39,404 bases of DNA. Origin: Candidatus Gastranaerophilales bacterium. Its GTDB lineage: Bacteria > Cyanobacteriota > Vampirovibrionia > Gastranaerophilales > Gastranaerophilaceae. This document shows positions 660 to 37,763 of the stretch, in pieces (positions within the stretch are counted from its first letter, which is position 1; each line of letters begins with the position of its first letter). The stretch is taken from contig CALUTD010000020.1 in assembly GCA_944323625.1 (NCBI GenBank), positions 1-39,404 of the forward strand. Reading direction: 5' to 3'. Made by a program: the position numbers and the translations under genes. The notes under the pieces were generated by a model. It made no database searches. It saw only the letters and a program-made list of their open reading frames with translations, and was not told the origin of the DNA.

Positions 660-3419
660 CTAAAGGCATTTATATACAAGGTTTTGTTCATTTAATTCAA
701 CAAAATCTTTATATACATAAGGAATATTTATATTAATTACTCCGTTTTGGGCATCTGGGGTCAGATTATAATCATTAATAAAATTTTTATCTGCCATAAT
801 TTTATATTGCCCCGGCGAAATACCCGAAAAATAGTAATTTCCCTCTTTATCGACGGTAGAATATGCTGCTTCTTCACCGTTTGAATCATATAAAGAAACT
901 ATAAAATCGGAAATATTCATTTTTCTGTTAAAATCATCAACTATTTTAAGCTTTCCTCTTATATTGCCGACTGAACTCTTTAAAGGGAACTCAACACGTG
1001 TTATTTTTTGCGGTTCAACAAATATGTATTCTTTATCTTTTTTTTGGGCAGAAAGATTTGCATGCAGGTTATCAGTATCGAGGCTTACATTATAAAATCC
1101 TTTATCAACGCTTTGGAGGTCGCAAAAACCTGAGTTTTTAGTTTTTATAGGATTGCTTTTCCAGCTTACTTTTACCGGTACATCGGGAATTTTAATATCA
1201 TTTTTATCAAATACTCCGTTATTGTTTTTATCTATATATGCAACTACTTCAACAAATCCGCGATTTGGCGAATTTGTTCCTATTGAGTTTAATCTGTTAT
1301 CCGAAAACGCAAAAGTATCATTAAGGTTAAAATTTATTGAATGCCTTGCATTTGAAGGTATATACATATTATTAAAGAAATATCCGAGTGCGGTATTATA
1401 TTGATAATTTACACTCATAACCATGCCTGTTTTTGTTCTGTAACCTAAAGAGGCATTATATGTACATCCGTTATCGAGTCCTTCATATTTATATCCGATT
1501 CCGAGCCCAAGTAAAATTCGTTTAAACTCGGGAAACTGATAATTGATTTTTATCATGTTATAGTCATTGCTTGTTCCGTTGGAATCATATTTAACAGAGT
1601 CATGTCCCAATTTTAAACTGCCTTTATTTTTTGGCAGCCTGTAATTAAAATTTATGTAAGTTGTATCATACGAACTTTTAAAACCGCCTGAAGAGTCAGA
1701 CAGGGATAAATATTCTGTGTTATAAGCATTACCCATATTCCCGGCTTCAATAGAAGTATTTTGAGTTAAATTTTTTGATAAATTGACATTATAGTAATAG
1801 TTAAGGTTATTCCCCAAATTATTTTCGCCGTATCTTAAATTGCCGTTAAGCCGTAATCGTGCGGATTTAAATACTTTTGCACCTGCATTAAAATAAGCTT
1901 CATCAAATGAGATTAAACCTCCTGAATATTTATTATCCAAATTTGAATAATAACGGGTATATTTAACGTTGGCATTAAATTTTTCTTTTGCATAAGCGGC
2001 GGCAATTTCGGCACCCAAACGGTCGCATATAAACCCTGAGTCTGACCCTGCCACATAATAATCAGGGGATTGTTGATATAATCTTAATTTAAGAGTTGTA
2101 TTTCTAAAATCAAATACATTCTCTAAAGAAACGGAATAACCCGGTCTGTAATTACTCATATTATAGTTATAGTCTTTCATAAACGAAAGCCCTGAAAGCG
2201 CATTCAGGGTATAATGTTTATTTTTATAAAGACTTAATGTATTAATAACACTTAAGCCTTCCATTGTATTGGGGTTTCTATATACTCCCGAAGATAAAAT
2301 CGAATAATTATCATATAAACCTGATATAAATAATGCATTATCATTTCTTTGAATAATTTTATCATATATAACTTTTGTATCGAACTTTAAACGGTTAGAA
2401 ATACCGTATTGGCGCCCTATACCGGCAACAAACTTTTTAGAAGTCATTTGATATATATATCCGTTTGAACTGAAAAGTCTGTTATTATACCCTGAAATTC
2501 CGGCGAACATCCTGTTTTTGGTCTTGCCTCTTTCCAAAAATTCAAGCGGTTCAGAATCAGATTGTTTTTCTGCATACTCATCGTAATCGGAAATCTGTCC
2601 TCCTATAAGCATTGTACCGATTGAGTTATATTTATCATGGAACCCTGAAACCTGTCCGAGTTCATAATAATAATTTTTAAATTTATTTCTGTAGGTAAAA
2701 CTTAAGCCTCCAAAAGAAAATAACTCTTCTTCATAATTGTTGGTATTGAAATTCAACGCATAATCGCCTTTATATAATTTACCCTTAAGGCTCATCCTTG
2801 TATTATTGTTAAACATAATATCATTTTGAGCCATGTTTAGATAAACCTGTTTTGTTGAGTCACTCATCATTGAATTATTAATTTCAAAAGTATCAAATGA
2901 AAATTTCCCTTTTCCGCGCGGTTGTATATGTTTTATTTCTGCCGTCTTTTCATTTGATGACTCAGGATTTTCAGTTTTTTTAAGATATTTATTTGTAACA
3001 CTGACAAACAAAGAGAGAGAATCAATATTAAAATCGGAATCAAAAATTTTTGATGCTGTTATTTCATCAATGTAAAATTCATCTTTTTCAATAATTCCAT
3101 CTCTTTTGAACTTAGGAGAAGAACTGATTTCTTTGCCTTTTATAAAGACTCCCTTTTTATTAACAAGTACTTCTTCATTATTTCGTGTTAAAAATGTTAT
3201 TTCTTTTGAAGAATGATTTTCCTTGTATTTAATTTCCAAAATACGTGCTATCTGTTTAACCGGTATATATATTTTTGAATCGGATTCCATATAAATTTCG
3301 ATGTCTCTATAGTCCGAATTATTAAGTTCCAGTCCGCTTACGGTTGTTTCAACAGCAGCCATTGAAGCGGGTGAACAAAAAAACAAGAGCAGAAAAACAA
3401 TAATAAAAAAATGTTTCAT
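660..3419 (-). CDS. Outer-membrane fimbrial usher of a chaperone-usher system (non-classical type)
   Basis: 919 residues, in the usual range for ushers. Residues 1-21 are a signal peptide (hydrophobic run, then SMAA). Residues about 25-150 look like the periplasmic N-terminal domain that receives chaperone-subunit complexes. Residues about 165-700 are rich in alternating aromatic and polar residues (many Y, N and S strands), as expected for a 24-strand beta barrel; the LGQVSGFHDK and IGTMLIGGQISD stretches resemble the usher barrel start. From about 719 to the end there are two Ig-like or carboxypeptidase-regulatory-like repeats, the first with a DKNNNGVFDKND loop resembling calcium-binding motifs. 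Such C-terminal domains occur in some archaic or alternative-class ushers. The ATG overlaps the upstream subunit stop by one base (TAATG), preceded by AGGAAA. It is the last gene of a five-gene leftward operon. The family call rests on context as much as on sequence. Confidence 0.8.
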   Translation of the reverse strand: MKHFFIIVFLLLFFCSPASMAAVETTVSGLELNNSDYRDIEIYMESDSKIYIPVKQIARILEIKYKENHSSKEITFLTRNNEEVLVNKKGVFIKGKEISSSPKFKRDGIIEKDEFYIDEITASKIFDSDFNIDSLSLFVSVTNKYLKKTENPESSNEKTAEIKHIQPRGKGKFSFDTFEINNSMMSDSTKQVYLNMAQNDIMFNNNTRMSLKGKLYKGDYALNFNTNNYEEELFSFGGLSFTYRNKFKNYYYELGQVSGFHDKYNSIGTMLIGGQISDYDEYAEKQSDSEPLEFLERGKTKNRMFAGISGYNNRLFSSNGYIYQMTSKKFVAGIGRQYGISNRLKFDTKVIYDKIIQRNDNALFISGLYDNYSILSSGVYRNPNTMEGLSVINTLSLYKNKHYTLNALSGLSFMKDYNYNMSNYRPGYSVSLENVFDFRNTTLKLRLYQQSPDYYVAGSDSGFICDRLGAEIAAAYAKEKFNANVKYTRYYSNLDNKYSGGLISFDEAYFNAGAKVFKSARLRLNGNLRYGENNLGNNLNYYYNVNLSKNLTQNTSIEAGNMGNAYNTEYLSLSDSSGGFKSSYDTTYINFNYRLPKNKGSLKLGHDSVKYDSNGTSNDYNMIKINYQFPEFKRILLGLGIGYKYEGLDNGCTYNASLGYRTKTGMVMSVNYQYNTALGYFFNNMYIPSNARHSINFNLNDTFAFSDNRLNSIGTNSPNRGFVEVVAYIDKNNNGVFDKNDIKIPDVPVKVSWKSNPIKTKNSGFCDLQSVDKGFYNVSLDTDNLHANLSAQKKDKEYIFVEPQKITRVEFPLKSSVGNIRGKLKIVDDFNRKMNISDFIVSLYDSNGEEAAYSTVDKEGNYYFSGISPGQYKIMADKNFINDYNLTPDAQNGVININIPYVYKDFVELNEQNLVYKCL

Positions 3420-4027
3420 TAAGGTTTCCTGTAAATGTTAAGGGTAATTGCAGCTTCATACATACCTGAAGAGTCATCGGAAATTGAATATGTTCCAGCT
3501 AAAGGTGTATTGCCTATTCTTTGTGAAATATTGAAATTTTGTTTACCGCGGCTTTTAAATATACAGCTTAAAATACCGTTATATTTTTGATATGAAGTAT
3601 CAAATTCGGGATTCTTTAATACGGGGTATGCAATCATATTTTTATTATTTTGCGCACTGCCTGATGTTATATCCGAAAGTGCCGCCATATCCGGTAAATA
3701 TTCTTTATTCGCCAATATAAGATACAGGTCGCCGTTTTTTAAAAAGTAGCCGTTTGTTTCGCCCGATGTTGTATTAACAGACCCTGATAAGACAAAATCA
3801 TAAGTACTGTCATCACCATTTGTTTTTACGTTAAAAATAGCTTCTAATCCGTTATGTACACCTGTCTCGGGATTTATTGAACTGTTATTTCCCGAAGAAG
3901 TTATTGTATTTACTGATGCAGCGCACGGAACTATAACTGTCAGTACGCTTTCTCTTACAGCCGCACCGAAACATGCCGGTGCGGATATAATCGAAAGAAA
4001 TAAAAAGATAATAAAATTACTTTTCAT
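3419..4027 (-). CDS. Fimbrial subunit, second copy (probable minor pilin)
   Basis: 202 residues with a signal peptide ending near CFGA. The mature N-terminus has alternating hydrophobic residues (ESVLTVIVP), the form of a donor strand that is handed to the next subunit. It is a paralogue of the gene just upstream (4039-4650): both share INxETG, NG-Y/F-x-KNG-x-Y-x-ILx and a conserved IAYPV block, and both end in a beta strand after a G-x-YEA motif. It contains two mature cysteines (VPCA and LSCIF) that could form a disulfide. It is translationally coupled to the usher. Major or minor role cannot be told from sequence; its place next to the usher makes me favour a minor or initiating subunit. 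Confidence 0.75.
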   Translation of the reverse strand: MKSNFIIFLFLSIISAPACFGAAVRESVLTVIVPCAASVNTITSSGNNSSINPETGVHNGLEAIFNVKTNGDDSTYDFVLSGSVNTTSGETNGYFLKNGDLYLILANKEYLPDMAALSDITSGSAQNNKNMIAYPVLKNPEFDTSYQKYNGILSCIFKSRGKQNFNISQRIGNTPLAGTYSISDDSSGMYEAAITLNIYRKP

Positions 4028-4038
4028 TTATTATTTTC

Positions 4039-4650
4039 CTATGTAGTAGTATCTGTCAGGATAATATATGCTTCATAATTACCCGATTTATCGTTATATG
4101 AGTAAGTTGTTTTATCAACATTTGCGGATATAGTTGTTGTTGCTGTTGTTTCACCTTGCTTTACACTAAATTCATAGCGTGCTTTATCATCAACGAATAC
4201 AGGTTCTTTAGTGAAATTGCCGGTTAATTTAACACTTGAAACAGGGTAGGCAATGGCGTTTTGATTCTGTTCTGGGTCAGTATTACCCTGTCTTATATTT
4301 TCAATAGCAGTTGCGGTAGGTCTAACTCCTGTATGGCCGAGTATAATATATACAGTACCGTTCTTTTTATAAAATCCGTTAACGGCACCTACATTTTCTG
4401 CCATTGTTTCGGCTCTTAAATAAAGGTCTATATTGTCATTTGAACTTATTTTAAATACAGAATTAAAAGCTTCTGTCAAATTACCTGTTTCTGCATTGAT
4501 ATTACTTTTTAACATGCAGTCTTCGACTTTAATATTTACATAAGCAGGTAAATATGCCTGAATTGTTTGTCTTGCATAGTTATCTGCATAAGCGCCGGAA
4601 CATGTTGCCGCAAGAACTAACATTGATGCTAAAATTTTTGTTTTCTTCAT
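4039..4650 (-). CDS. Fimbrial subunit, first copy (possible major pilin)
   Basis: 203 residues. Signal peptide 1-22 ends at AYA. The mature N-terminus NYARQTIQAYLPAYVNI resembles the donor-strand segment of CS1/CFA-I-like pilins (pattern V-x-A-x-V-x-P) and is close to the N-terminus of the divergent gene at 6519 (EARQHVQASLPDVLHI). One mature cysteine only. It is a paralogue of 3419-4027, 11 bases downstream. A strong GGAG ribosome site precedes the ATG. The abundance of T, N and A and the lack of other motifs fit a structural pilin. Secreted to the periplasm, folded by the chaperone encoded just upstream, then threaded through the usher. Confidence 0.75.
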   Translation of the reverse strand: MKKTKILASMLVLAATCSGAYADNYARQTIQAYLPAYVNIKVEDCMLKSNINAETGNLTEAFNSVFKISSNDNIDLYLRAETMAENVGAVNGFYKKNGTVYIILGHTGVRPTATAIENIRQGNTDPEQNQNAIAYPVSSVKLTGNFTKEPVFVDDKARYEFSVKQGETTATTTISANVDKTTYSYNDKSGNYEAYIILTDTTT

Positions 4651-4662
4651 GTTTTCTCCTTT

Positions 4663-5490
4663 TTAGATTTTGTTTGTAACCTGAAACTGAGTTTCTTTTA
4701 TTAAATTTTTGTTTTCACCTTTTTCGTTTTTATAAGTTAGAATTACTTTTAGAATATATTCCCCGTTTTCAAGATTATCAGGAAGCAGTCCTTTTTCTTC
4801 AAAAATTCCGTTTGCACGCACTGTATTGCTGTTTACGGGAAACTCTTTAATGAGTTTATCGTTTTTAATTATTTGTGCTTTACCGTGATATCGGACTTTA
4901 CTGTTTCCGTTAGAGCTCAAATTTATTTTATAAACAAGATTGTTGTTATTTTGTTCAACCTTTAAATCATCAAAATTCCCAACTTTGACAAAACGGCCTT
5001 TATCAACATAAATAGGGATTCCTAGCCTTGTTTTTACAATCAGTCTTGTATTTAGATTCTTATTTTTATTGGGAAGAATAACTTCTTTTGCAGCAACATC
5101 TTCTATAAACATAACCATCCTTGATTCACCGTCAGGTAAACTTTTTAAATCGGTAAAGGTTACTCTTACAGTTTGTATTGCTCCGTCTTTCAAAGTAAAT
5201 TCATTCGGCACAAAACGCGCATGAGAAATAAGATTATCGGGGCTGTCAGAATCAGGCATGGAATTCATTTTTCCTTCGTCCGTAATCGTAAAATATTCGG
5301 GATAAATTTTGAATCTTACAACTTCGTCTTTTTCTGCCTGAACACTAAATGATGTTGTCAGATAATTGCTTTTGTTTTTATTTGCATTAAGCTCAATTAG
5401 TGTCGGCATAACCTTAACAGCCGCATAACACAAATTTATTTGTCCCAAAAGAATTATAAAAATTAATAAGCAGCCTAAGGATTTTTTCAT
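4663..5490 (-). CDS. Periplasmic fimbrial chaperone, PapD-like
   Basis: 275 residues with a signal peptide (1-23). Three landmarks of the PapD fold can be read: an opening strand VKVMPTLIEL (family pattern with a conserved P-T near the N-terminus); residues RFVPNEFTLKDGAIQTVRV, matching the chaperone pattern R-x-x-P-x-x-F-x-L-x-x-G-x-x-Q-x-V-R; and RLGIPIYVD, the family R-x-x-IP-hydrophobic strand before the second domain. The second Ig domain follows from about residue 155. The function is to cap and fold the subunits by donor-strand complementation and deliver them to the usher. It lies 12 bases upstream of the first subunit gene and one base after the gene before it, so all are one transcript. 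Confidence 0.85.
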   Translation of the reverse strand: MKKSLGCLLIFIILLGQINLCYAAVKVMPTLIELNANKNKSNYLTTSFSVQAEKDEVVRFKIYPEYFTITDEGKMNSMPDSDSPDNLISHARFVPNEFTLKDGAIQTVRVTFTDLKSLPDGESRMVMFIEDVAAKEVILPNKNKNLNTRLIVKTRLGIPIYVDKGRFVKVGNFDDLKVEQNNNNLVYKINLSSNGNSKVRYHGKAQIIKNDKLIKEFPVNSNTVRANGIFEEKGLLPDNLENGEYILKVILTYKNEKGENKNLIKETQFQVTNKI

Positions 5491-5491
5491 A

Positions 5492-6379
5492 TTATTCCCT
5501 TTCTAATATATAAGTGAATGAATTGTGTTTTAGACCTTCTTTAATATAAGAATCAGAATTTGTATTCTTAAATAAGTACTCAATTGTTATATCGCTGGGT
5601 GTTTTGTTTCCTGTGCAAATACCGTCCAAAGTAGGCTCTCCTGTTGCTAAAAGGTATCTTTTATCAGGTAAAAGTTTTATATTATTTCTATCAAAACTTT
5701 TAATTTTTCCCGTAGCATTTTTTATTTGGCAATAGTATTCGCATTCATCATTTTCCAGTTTTGAAGTTACAAGCCAAAGTTTCCAATTTGTATTAGAAAA
5801 AATATTGAGCCTTACATCACTTTTGTTTCTTATATAAGATTGTTTATTGAAAATGTCATCTTCCGATAAAACAATTAAAGGATCACCGGTTAAAAAAGTA
5901 ATTATATGTTTATCGTTGACTATAAAATTGAAAAAGAATTCAGATTCTACATCAGAACCCGCTTCATTTTTGTTTGAGAATCTGAGTAAAACGCTGTATG
6001 TTCCTGCGGGAAGTTCACCTATATTTTCAAGTCTTAAATTAATATTTTTTTGGACAGTACCTTCCGGATTTTGGTAGTCAATAAAAAATTGACGTTGAGA
6101 AGAATTTGTTATTTGAAATTCCTTTCCGTCACATAAAAGATATAAATTCTCGACGGGAATTTTTATGCTTGGATTTTCATTATTTGATATGTAAGGATCA
6201 ACCGCCATAACAGAAAGTTTGGAAAGTCCGTTTTTAATATAATTTAAATTAATATTCGCTAGAACATTGTTTTCACTGACAAACGGAAAACCTGACATTT
6301 CTGCTCTAAACGCCGGATTTGCATTTGCATTTGAACAAAATAATATTAAAGTTGTTAGTAAAATTAAAAATTTTTTCAT
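5492..6379 (-). CDS. Secreted protein of the fimbrial operon, putative tip or adhesin subunit
   Basis: 295 residues; signal peptide 1-20 (SNANA then NPAFRAE). It is the first gene of the usher operon, with GAGGA nine bases before its ATG, and is one base from the chaperone gene. The protein reads as two beta-rich halves: about 20-155, with LPAGTYSVLLRFS typical of an Ig-like strand pair, and about 160-295. Four cysteines (LLCDG, NDECEYYC, DGICTG) allow disulfides. I recognise no named family. Its size and position fit a two-domain tip adhesin or a second accessory chaperone; the usual PapD landmarks are absent, so I prefer the former. That is inference from context. Confidence 0.55.
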   Translation of the reverse strand: MKKFLILLTTLILFCSNANANPAFRAEMSGFPFVSENNVLANINLNYIKNGLSKLSVMAVDPYISNNENPSIKIPVENLYLLCDGKEFQITNSSQRQFFIDYQNPEGTVQKNINLRLENIGELPAGTYSVLLRFSNKNEAGSDVESEFFFNFIVNDKHIITFLTGDPLIVLSEDDIFNKQSYIRNKSDVRLNIFSNTNWKLWLVTSKLENDECEYYCQIKNATGKIKSFDRNNIKLLPDKRYLLATGEPTLDGICTGNKTPSDITIEYLFKNTNSDSYIKEGLKHNSFTYILERE

Positions 6380-14335: not shown

Positions 14336-14962
14336 TTATAATCTGTACGGATAGTCATCTTTAATTTCCCATCCGTCTTTCATAATAAGTTGAAAACCTT
14401 TAAATACAGCATCAAGGGTACTATTTTTTGCTGAAGCTATAATTTCATATCTATCTCTAGAATCTTCGATAACTATTTCTGTGGAAGAACCGATATAAAA
14501 TCCAAATATATCTCTTCCTGCTTGGTTAGGACCTTTTTCTCCATTTACATCTATGTAGAAAATATTTGATTCAGAACCTGAGCAACTCATAATTGTTCCA
14601 TCGTTTAAATAAACTGCGAATACAGGCTCCTCGACAAATCCTATAGTAGAATATACATCACTACCATAAGTTATTTTGGAATAACTAAAATGGTTTGCCA
14701 AATAATTATTAAATACATACATGCAGCTTTCTTTGTCAGAACATCTTTTCCATTCCCACGATTCATTGGGAATTCCGTGTTCTATTTCTGCAAGTTTTAC
14801 AGCATTTACAAATGTCGAATAAAACTTTTTTAATTTTGCTGCTGTTTCAGTTTTTTTATGATTTGCCATAATTGTAGGTACTGTTATTGCCGCAATAATT
14901 CCGATAACAACCAAAGTTATTAATACCTCTGCAAGAGTAAATGATTTTTTATTCTTTAACAT
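14336..14962 (-). CDS. Type IV prepilin-like protein
   Basis: 208 residues from ATG 14962, which has GGAG six bases upstream; an earlier in-frame TTG at 14974 lies across that site and is rejected. The leader MLKNKKS precedes FTLAEVLITLVVIG, the prepilin N-methylation motif with Glu5, then a hydrophobic helix and KKTETAAKLKKFYSTF. The C-terminal half has DVNGEKGPN-x-x-GRD and ends KDGWEIKDDYP. The last two blocks recur in the prepilins at 35973 and 37065. The gene is divergent from an XRE regulator. It is likely a minor pilin or pseudopilin; no pilus machinery is in the window. Confidence 0.88.
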   Translation of the reverse strand: MLKNKKSFTLAEVLITLVVIGIIAAITVPTIMANHKKTETAAKLKKFYSTFVNAVKLAEIEHGIPNESWEWKRCSDKESCMYVFNNYLANHFSYSKITYGSDVYSTIGFVEEPVFAVYLNDGTIMSCSGSESNIFYIDVNGEKGPNQAGRDIFGFYIGSSTEIVIEDSRDRYEIIASAKNSTLDAVFKGFQLIMKDGWEIKDDYPYRL

Positions 14963-14980
14963 TTTAATCTCCAATAAAAA

Positions 14981-34264: not shown

Positions 34265-35082
34265 AAATCCTTGTTACGGGTGCAAACGGAATGCTTGGGC
34301 AGGATTTATGCCCGATGTTAGAAGATGAAGGATATGATGTAGTAGAAACAGATATTAATAATCTTGATATTACTAAAATTGAGGAAGTTGAGAACGTTTT
34401 AACCGAAAATATGCCTGATTTTGTCATTCACTGCGCTGCATATACAAATGTTGATAAGGCTGAAGAAGATAAAGATAATGCATATAAAATAAATGCAGAC
34501 GGTACTAAAAATATCGCATTAATTTGTAAGAAATTAAACATAACATTAATATATTTATCAACTGATTATGTGTTTGACGGTACAAAACAAGGAAAATATG
34601 TACCTGAAGATATAACAAATCCTCAAAATGTATATGGTAAAACAAAATTAGAAGGCGAAAAAGCTGTTAAACAGTGTGATAAATATTATATAGTAAGAAC
34701 AAGCTGGCTATACGGTCATCATGGTAAAAATTTTGTTGAAACAATGATATCATTGGCCGACAAACCCGAATTAAAAGTAGTTGATGACCAAAAAGGCTGC
34801 CCTACTTGGACTTGTGAACTTGCTAACGGGATTATAAAAATAATAGAAAATGAAATGCCATATGGCATATATCATGTATGCGGCTCAGGGGAAACTACAT
34901 GGTATAATTTCAGTAAAAAAATATTTGAGTTATGTAATCTAAATGTCAATTTAAAACCTTGTACAAGTCAAGAATATCCTCAAAAGGCAAAACGTCCTGC
35001 AAACAGTGTTATGGAAAATAATCATATATGCAGAAACTGGGAAACTGCACTTAAAGAATATATTGAATTGAGGTGCGAATGA
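34261..35082 (+). CDS. rfbD: dTDP-4-dehydrorhamnose reductase
   Basis: 273 residues from ATG 34261, which forms an ATGA overlap with rml[11 protein letters not shown] is the cofactor motif, STDYVFDG and YGKTKLEGE (YxxxK) the catalytic region, and VRTSWLYG the family block. It performs the last reduction to dTDP-L-rhamnose with NAD(P)H. Confidence 0.95.
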
Positions 35083-35951
35083 AAGGAATAGTACTTGCCG
35101 GCGGTGCAGGCACAAGGCTTTATCCGTCAACGCTTGTTGTATCAAAACAATTATTGCCTATATATGATAAACCTATGATTTATCATCCGATTTCAGTTTT
35201 AATGCTTGCTGGAATAAAAGATATTTTAATTATATCAACTCCTGTTGATATTCCTAATTTTAAAAAACTATTAGGTGATGGTTCTCAATTCGGAGTCAGA
35301 TTTTCATACAAAGAGCAGCCAAGTCCAGATGGACTCGCTCAAGCTTTTATTTTGGGAAAAGAATTCATAGGAAAGGATTCTGTTGCTCTGATACTGGGGG
35401 ATAATATCTTCTACGGCCCCAATTTTTCTATGACATTAAAAAAAGCAGTCGAGAAAACAGAAAAATATGGAGGAGCAACTTTATTTGCGTATCAGGTTAA
35501 AGATCCTCAAAGATTCGGAGTTGTTGAATTTGACAATAATAATAAAGTTGTTTCTATTGAAGAAAAACCTGAAAATCCAAAATCTAAATATGCAGTAACT
35601 GGATTATATTTTTATGATAACAATGTTGTTGAATATGTACGTAATCAAAAACCCTCTAAACGTAACGAGCTTGAAATTACGGATTTGAATAATACTTATT
35701 TGAAAAAAAATAATGTTAGTGTAGAACTCTTAGGCAGAGGTTTTGCATGGCTTGATACAGGTACACATGAATCATTGCTCCAAGCATCTCAATTTATAAA
35801 AACAATTCAGGATAATCAAGGAATTAAAATTGCCTGTTTAGAAGAAATAGCATACAGAATGGGATTTATTTCAAAAGAACACTTAATAGAAATTGGTAGT
35901 AAATATAAGAATAATCCATATTTTCAATATATTCTAAATATAAAAGATTAA
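35079..35951 (+). CDS. rfbA: Glucose-1-phosphate thymidylyltransferase
   Basis: 290 residues from ATG 35079 (ATGA overlap with rmlD). [16 protein letters not shown] is the nucleotidyltransferase P-loop; [24 protein letters not shown] and [10 protein letters not shown] are RmlA blocks. It makes dTDP-glucose from dTTP and glucose-1-phosphate, the first step. Last of the four rml genes; the switchable prepilin gene starts 21 bases later and may be read from the same transcript. Confidence 0.96.
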
Positions 35952-35972
35952 GAAAGTAGAAGGAGAAAAATA

Positions 35973-36726
35973 ATGTCAAAACTAATTATGGGGGGGGGGA
36001 TTTAGAACTTTAAAATCCGGATTTTATGGATATAGCGCATTTACTTTGTCTGAAGTTCTTATTACACTTGTAATAATAGGTATTATTGCTGCAATAGCTA
36101 TTCCAAATTTAGTTACAAGTTATCAAAAGAAGCAAACAACAATAAGATTAAAAAAAGTGTTTTCTGAAATAACTCAAGCCGTAAAATTGGCAGAAGTGAC
36201 ATACGGTAGTATGTATAATTGGAGACAAGATAATGCTTTATCTGTTCAAGAGCGTGCAGATAAATATTTATTTCCATTCATCAAAATGTCAGAAAAAAAA
36301 GTTGAAGATGTAAAAAAGGATGGCATAAAATTTTATTCATTAAATGGGCAGGAAGAAACAAGTTATAATGCAGTAAGCAATGATTCAAAATGTACAACAA
36401 TGATTTCAGGCGTGCAATTATATGCTTCAAACTCCGAATATAATCCTGAAAAACCTTTTGGTATGACCTTTATTGTAGATATAAACGGAGCAAAAAAACC
36501 AAATAAATTCGGAAGAGATTTATTTGTAATATATGTGGGAGAGAAAGGAATATTTGGACATCATAAAGATGATAGCCAAAGCTATCCGGTACAAAAAACA
36601 CGTGATGAACTTTTGAACGGCCCCAGCAGTGAAAACTATCAATGTAATAAACAAGGTCGCGGAATATGGTGTTCGCAACTCATTATGACAGACGGATGGG
36701 AAATAAAAGATGATTATCCCTGGTAA
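35973..36726 (+). CDS. Type IV prepilin-like protein, out of frame by a G10 tract (probable phase-variable gene)
   Basis: AGGAG (35961-35965) and ATG 35973 give a good start, but the frame MSKLIMGGGI hits TAG at 36003. The prepilin frame runs from 36001 to 36726 with no proper start of its own: its first usable TTG (36046) lies inside the FTLSEVLITL motif. Removing one G from the run of ten (35990-35999) fuses the two parts into a leader of 22 residues ending GYSA, then FTLSEVLITLVIIG with Glu5, and a product of about 250 residues. The C-terminal half has DINGAKKPN-x-x-GRD and TDGWEIKDDYP, as in the other two prepilins. It follows rmlA by 21 bases. A sequencing error in the homopolymer is the other explanation. 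Confidence 0.8.
35990..35999 (+). repeat. Poly-G homopolymer, ten G
   Basis: Ten consecutive G within AT-rich DNA, placed a few codons after a well-formed start. In this length the downstream prepilin is off; nine or twelve G would turn it on. It encodes glycines in the disposable leader peptide, where length changes by whole codons would be harmless. Confidence 0.9.
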
Positions 36727-37064: not shown

Positions 37065-37763
37065 ATGTCAAAAAAGATAAAATATGGAAAAAGCAGCTTT
37101 ACTTTGGCAGAGGTACTAATTACTCTTGTAATTATCGGAATTATTGCAGCAATAACAGTTCCTGTTATTATGGCAAATCATAGGAAAACAGAAACTGCAG
37201 CAAGATTGAAAAAGTTTTATTCAACGCTTTCTAATGCAATAAGACTTGCAGAAATAGATAATGGTACAACCTTAAGTGAATGGGGAAATACTGCTTTTGA
37301 TTATGTTGTTAATTATTTAAATATTACTGAAAAAGATGAAGATAATGATAAATATATTTTAACAGATGGAACTACTTTAACTATTGGTAAAGCTTCAATG
37401 GGTGGGCTATGGACTGAAGGTGCTCCTGGTCCTGGGCCTGAACAAGCTTATGCTACTATGTTAACATTTGATACGAATGGAGATAAAAAACCAAATGAAA
37501 TAGGACGAGATAGATTTATATTTTATTTCGTTACTGGTGGACAAAGGACAGCAGCTGTATCATCTAGTCGCACACAATCAGGGTTGGTAACTTTTCCCTG
37601 GGCATATGGGGAGAATACAACAAGAAGTTCTTTAATAGAAAGGTGTATTGAAACAAAGCAGCTTGTTGAGTCTTCGGATTTTCAGTTTACACTCGGTTTT
37701 TGTACTGAACTGGTAATGCGCGATGGCTGGGAATTTAAGGATGATTATCCATTAAAAATATAA
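37065..37763 (+). CDS. Type IV prepilin-like protein
   Basis: 232 residues; GGAG seven bases before the ATG. Leader MSKKIKYGKSS then FTLAEVLITLVIIG, Glu5 and a hydrophobic helix; then RKTETAARLKKFYSTL, nearly the same as in the 14336-14962 gene. The globular part contains a Gly/Pro-rich loop (EGAPGPGPEQ), DTNGDKKPNEIGRD (possible calcium-binding loop) and ends MRDGWEFKDDYP. Expression is probably controlled by the divergent XRE gene. Confidence 0.9.
   Translation: MSKKIKYGKSSFTLAEVLITLVIIGIIAAITVPVIMANHRKTETAARLKKFYSTLSNAIRLAEIDNGTTLSEWGNTAFDYVVNYLNITEKDEDNDKYILTDGTTLTIGKASMGGLWTEGAPGPGPEQAYATMLTFDTNGDKKPNEIGRDRFIFYFVTGGQRTAAVSSSRTQSGLVTFPWAYGENTTRSSLIERCIETKQLVESSDFQFTLGFCTELVMRDGWEFKDDYPLKI

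Follow-up and report, generated by a model that had tools for sequence, protein, structure and literature searches.

Poly-G tracts within prepilin leaders point to probable phase variation of a large type IV pilin repertoire in a Candidatus Gastranaerophilales genome

A G10 tract separates a prepilin start codon from its body

The window analyzed here is a stretch of 39,404 nucleotides from a Candidatus Gastranaerophilales bacterium (contig CALUTD010000020.1). It contains a prepilin gene whose start codon and body lie in different reading frames, with a run of ten G in the leader. The features of this locus, together with the other prepilin genes of the window, are as follows.

35073-35951, plus strand: rmlA, glucose-1-phosphate thymidylyltransferase (TIGR01207)
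35960-35965, plus strand: Shine-Dalgarno sequence AAGGAG of the prepilin gene, read directly from the sequence
35973-36005, plus strand: leader start ATG (35973-35975) and short OFF-state frame MSKLIMGGGI, ending at the stop codon TAG (36003-36005)
35986-36726, plus strand: prepilin body frame, open through the tract, with its stop codon at 36724-36726 (PF07963, PF20318)
35990-35999, plus strand: G10 tract, exactly ten G; the body frame is joined to the start at 9 or 12 G and is not joined as assembled
36040-36723, plus strand: predicted mature pilin FTLSEVLITL..., 228 aa, with cleavage predicted before F36040 from the motif
37065-37763, plus strand: adjoining prepilin gene, without a tract
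14336-14974, minus strand: further prepilin gene of the family, without a tract

An initial annotation of this DNA had described an ATG at 35973 with a good ribosome site, opening a frame that passes through the ten G to a stop at 36003, and direct reading bears this out exactly (ATG TCA AAA CTA ATT ATG GGG GGG GGG ATT TAG). Its further claims, that the body lies in the next frame with no start ahead of the FTLSEVLITL motif and that nine G would unite the two halves behind a 22-residue leader, were confirmed as well. ATG, GTG, and TTG are absent from the body frame ahead of the motif, the earliest TTG (36046) falling within it, and G9 in place of G10 fuses the halves with the leader MSKLIMGGGFRTLKSGFYGYSA. 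The prepilin gene lies 21 nt downstream of rmlA and may be co-transcribed with the rhamnose genes.

In a family profile search, the body matched both N_methyl (PF07963) and DUF6613 (PF20318) above their cut-offs. The features expected of a prepilin are present, namely, a short leader, a cleavage motif with F+1 and E+5, and a hydrophobic N-helix, and the profile of the body matched solved type IV pilins in the PDB over the N-helix. The predicted structure (mean pLDDT, 77) consists of a 53-residue N-helix followed by a beta-rich C-terminal part; a PDB fold search returned no solved fold matching the whole model at E 0.001. A prepilin peptidase is encoded in the same genome (Peptidase_A24, C6:6183-6650; E, 1e-10). 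This class of enzyme removes the leader, and the tract with it, so the number of glycines encoded there would be without effect on the mature pilin.

The G10 tract is the only G run of at least 8 in the window, where shuffled sequences gave 0.15 matches, and A9 runs are depleted over the same stretch (1 observed vs 24 expected). At ten G and at the 5' end of its gene, the tract falls within the class of hypermutable homopolymers as defined by the PhasomeIt criterion, poly-G/C of at least 9 (PMC5953494). Elsewhere in the window (660-6379, minus strand) is a putative chaperone-usher-like fimbrial cluster, judged by reading, which comprises a 919-aa surface-type protein, small secreted proteins, and a 275-aa chaperone-like protein.

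Poly-G tracts are enriched in the genome and vary across the genus

The host genome (G000; 1.99 Mb in 37 contigs, 96% complete, 31% G+C) contains 119 tracts of G9 or longer on either strand, against about 1 expected. The analysis drew on large pieces that together cover 20% of the genome and on short stretches chosen as targets. In a 400-kb sample, the number of G/C runs fell from 73 at length 5 to 4 at length 6, 1 at length 7, and 0 at length 8 and then rose to 11 at length 9, 11 at length 10, and 3 at length 11, with none longer, giving a bimodal spectrum. The resulting 25 runs of at least 9 compare with ~0.15 expected, while A/T runs of at least 9 in the same sample were fewer than predicted by the same model (21 vs >100). 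These counts and the window shuffles agree with the earlier statement that a G10 run is very unlikely to have arisen by chance. Loss of mismatch repair was considered as a cause of tract instability and rejected: MutS is present in the genome, so a general repair defect does not account for it.

Among 34 congeners, 19 carry at least 20 G9+ tracts and four carry none, while the other genera of the order have 0 to 6 each. The four congeners with zero tracts (G001, G006, G018, and G021) stand next to congeners with dozens, and poly-G use seems to turn over rapidly in this genus through gain or loss. The prepilin tract motif is also found in Candidatus Gastranaerophilales metagenome-assembled genomes (MAGs) from rabbit gut. 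For the window prepilin itself, the body found no relative when searched against GTDB contigs, viral contigs gave no useful match, and the best matches in the genus were 44 to 46% identical with the tract absent at the corresponding place, so that orthologous tract lengths are not comparable.

Tracts recur within the leaders of the prepilin repertoire

Prepilin-type genes gave 116 matches in the host genome. Sixty of these prepilins carry a tract of 8 to 11 inside the leader (56 G and 4 C on the coding strand), and leader tracts of like kind occur in two other species (G008 and G019). Homologous leaders are unequal in tract length, for example, G8/G9/G9 in three C22 copies and G9 vs G10 at C14:30354 and C19:37881, the differences seen being between paralogous copies only. 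A further 28 prepilins have no tract within reach, a tally in which one gene, C17:97, is truncated by a contig end.

In about 22 further prepilins, the tract lies in a short upstream open reading frame (ORF; MNKSxxRHGGG...). In this layout, an AT-rich hairpin (z = -6 in one example) comes after the tract ORF, and then a TTTAAA-18-TATAAT promoter-like site and a tract-less MKKIKSFTLAEV prepilin; the promoter-like sites were no more frequent than in shuffled sequences. Examples are found at C9:6251, C17:1067, C3:48331, and C22:3193-5060 and at some 18 more loci of the host genome, as well as in G008. The short tract ORF is a candidate leader relic, attenuator, or small peptide.

Pilin bodies are intact behind mostly out-of-frame tracts

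In the stretch between tract and motif, the body frame is open in all 60 leaders, compared with 3/60 and 17/60 for the other two frames (P ~1e-30), and few leaders have an alternative in-frame start 3' of the tract. Nearly all bodies are intact, at ~200 to 260 aa, and dN/dS is 0.08 to 0.34 between near paralogues, including pairs in which both members are out of frame. To judge from these sequences, out-of-frame pilin genes are in use and under purifying selection. Pseudogenes decaying after an expansion of the family would be mostly out of frame, as most of these copies are, but the intact bodies, the low dN/dS values, and the fact that tract length is the only recurrent lesion leave this explanation scarcely credible. 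Gene decay, which the initial annotation had raised, is ruled out for the window gene by the 60 open body frames and by the dN/dS range.

As assembled, only 6 of the 60 leader tracts are in frame. The length that would join start and body is 8 or 11 for 47 of the leaders, while the actual lengths are mainly 9 or 10. In contrast, among coding tracts of the genus outside prepilin genes, 15 of 28 are in frame (P value of the difference, 2e-5, for G000 alone). In G008, the corresponding value is 1 of 30 leader tracts, a biased figure because part of the set was fetched by an exact-G9 pattern; when prepilins of G008 and G019 were retrieved by family rather than by tract, length 9 again predominated. 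Furthermore, an exact G8 in the prepilin-tract context does not occur in G008 and hardly occurs across the genus. Because 6 of 60 is below the one third expected from random frames, a second factor is needed, for which a default-OFF design, selection, or an unseen correction of the frame are candidates.

We considered whether these frames could reflect errors of homopolymer length in otherwise intact genes. Homopolymers are error-prone and the relatives are metagenome assemblies; however, dozens of genes from three species agree in where the tract lies, in its frame, and in its flanks, and length errors would have to strike prepilins far more often than other genes. We therefore regard a sequencing or assembly artefact as highly improbable. 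A one-off assembly error at the window locus, also raised by the initial annotation, is ruled out by the uniformly open body frames and by the equivalent leader tracts in the two other species.

Correction of the frame could also be non-heritable, with slippage of RNA polymerase or the ribosome on the G run yielding some in-frame pilin from G9 or G10 genes and nothing being switched. This would reconcile purifying selection on the bodies with 90% of leader tracts being out of frame, and in the main leader family G9 directly precedes TAA or TAG, resembling some programmed shift sites. However, the shifts required by G9 and G10 genes would be in opposite directions, and neither a second leader family nor the C-tract leaders have the stop behind the tract. 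Tracts are moreover found on both strands and in more than one codon phase, and 15 of 28 non-prepilin tracts are in frame, which is what would be expected if frame matters. Slippage as the explanation is thus quite unlikely. Programmed ribosomal frameshifting was rejected as a general explanation, there being no constant direction and no common slippery site.

Tracts share DNA-level flanks and leaders recombine with different bodies

Prepilin tracts have in common a GCYAC 5' of the G run and a TA 3' of it. GCYAC is present in 31 of the 60 host-genome leaders vs 0 of 40 non-prepilin tracts. On the G strand, the GCYAC/TA flanks fall in two or more codon phases, and C-tract leaders of G000, G008, and G019 carry them too; being independent of frame and strand, the flanks are not maintained by the peptide. 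The window tract is without these flanks and needs 9 rather than 8 G to be in frame.

Pairs of prepilin genes were found to be chimeric, with breaks at +60 to +120 relative to the motif. C17:97 and C17:1067 have the same sequence from -90 to +60, beyond which they fall to ~0.57, and C6:32226/C6:39338 and C5:8691/C8:1102 have a similar pattern with the drop at +90 to +120. Conversely, C7:23086, which has no tract, and C2:81076, which has a G10 leader, share 82% identity in their bodies but carry unrelated 5' modules. A rough tree of 107 divergent bodies showed 40 changes in the type of 5' module vs 40.9 in shuffles, with no detectable association. The chimeric pairs are the stronger evidence, and they indicate that leaders recombine with different bodies.

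The same observations bear on the possibility that most tract genes are a silent cassette library, unexpressed in place and serving as body donors for a few expressed loci in the manner of pilS and pilE, the tract only silencing them. Most copies are indeed out of frame, recent chimeras place one leader and N-helix on different bodies, bodies and 5' modules are unassociated on the rough tree, and the 28 tract-less prepilins are possible expression sites. However, every copy retains a ribosome site, a start codon, and a leader open in the body frame, all of which would be needless in silent donors, and as the explanation of the tracts a cassette library is unlikely. It is compatible with phase variation, and both can hold.

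Slipped-strand switching as the probable explanation

Collectively, the genome-wide pattern, in which the window gene is one of about 60, supports the earlier proposal of a probable phase-variation switch. From this pattern we infer the switching itself, and we consider it highly probable that the tracts reflect phase variation, by slipped-strand changes in poly-G length, of a type IV pilin repertoire that is large, recombining, and mostly silent. Gain or loss of G at replication would shift the start codon into or out of the frame of the body, such that the window gene would be ON at G9 or G12 and is predicted to be OFF at the assembled G10. It would be one member of a repertoire of more than 100 prepilins, about 60 with a leader tract of their own and most presumably OFF at any moment. 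Leader modules with their tracts also recombine onto other bodies, so that a lineage would alter both the set that is ON and the body behind each switch. Tract length would be expected to vary within a population, the in-frame state being the expressed one, and the switch may have a role in antigenic or adhesive variation. The picture suggested is of a cell with a large wardrobe of surface fibers that is reshuffled and of which few are in use at once.

A more specific proposal, which we put forward tentatively as a possibility, is a dedicated pilin-diversification system in gut Gastranaerophilales. Here the 5' module (ribosome site, leader, and GCYAC-G(8-11)-TA) would be mobile and would sit on dozens of pilin genes whose bodies are swapped by recombination, and an ON length mostly at 8 or 11, offset from the prevailing 9 or 10, would make silence the default and leave one or a few pilins on per cell.

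Discussion

The closest precedents come from pathogenic Neisseria, in which pilC1 and pilC2 undergo poly-G/C phase variation (G 9 to 20) and genomes of the meningococcus, the gonococcus, and N. lactamica carry 15 to 19 poly-G tracts with a modal length of 9 to 10 (PMC5953494). As in pilC, a type IV pilus gene has inside its reading frame a homopolymeric G/C tract that would set ON or OFF by frame. Unlike pilC, where one or two accessory pilus genes are concerned, the tracts described here lie in about 60 pilin subunit genes, mostly OFF, in a member of the Cyanobacteriota, and they are located within the prepilin leader itself. As in pilE/pilS, pilin bodies appear to be swapped by recombination behind a conserved N-terminal segment; however, instead of a single expression locus with truncated, promoterless silent copies, the copies here are full-length, each with a ribosome site, a start codon, and a tract switch of its own. 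A further comparison is with Mycoplasma gallisepticum, whose vlhA genes form a large family of surface proteins, most of them off, with a separate switch for every copy made of GAA trinucleotide repeats that act on transcription. The prepilins, most of them out of frame, resemble vlhA in family size and in the repeat at each copy, but their homopolymers would act on the reading frame. The tracts also resemble the poly-G loci of Campylobacter and Helicobacter, which have ~8 to 17 G, occur in AT-rich genomes at gene 5' ends or promoters, and affect genes for surface structures. Unlike in those genera, the tracts here number 119, are concentrated in a single expanded family of pilins, are biased toward OFF, and have flanks in common at the DNA level; H. 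canadensis has 29 tract-associated coding regions with read-level variation (PMC2823697).

The mechanism is thus already known, while the scale, the OFF bias, and the lineage appear to be new. No literature linking Gastranaerophilales or Melainabacteria to pilin phase variation was found among open-licence papers, which is weak evidence of absence. If the proposed switching is correct, widespread and little-known non-photosynthetic cyanobacteria of the animal gut would have a phase-variable repertoire among the largest per genome, with 119 poly-G tracts in 2 Mb vs a Neisseria mean of 15 to 19 (PMC5953494), directed at their own pilin subunits. The biology of antigenic variation, familiar from classical pathogens, would then extend to a gut commensal, with the prediction of a default-OFF state in which few pilins out of many are expressed.

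Other tract-bearing loci

Tracts were also observed in other settings. G10 to G11 tracts lie within three consecutive genes of the host genome that read as sugar-biosynthesis genes (C4:4850, 6691, and 8729), and another lies in a dehydratase-like gene of G026 (C1:191239); these identities come from reading the translations rather than from a family search. We read them as ordinary contingency-type loci, classical targets of poly-G switching. In the host genome, the prepilin leader at C1:158716 has an interrupted tract, GCGCC-GGGGTGGGG-TA, which is in frame and looks like a switch locked ON.

In four other rabbit-gut Gastranaerophilales MAGs, CGCCAC-G9-TARA, with the flanks known from the prepilin tracts, lies immediately 5' of a surface-protein-like gene of a quite different kind (MKKKFNLNAAALLCTMA...), with the tract at the Shine-Dalgarno position (L150:1315, L158:7653, L164:4660, L168:1333, and L175:3181). 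These loci were found with the motif itself and are an observation rather than a count. Tract length at this position may tune the start of translation. Finally, G008 contains divergent prepilin pairs (L177:1491/1699, L161:6898/7105, and L157:5095/5302) in which two tracts ~207 bp apart have equal strand orientation, forming direct repeats around a shared promoter region.
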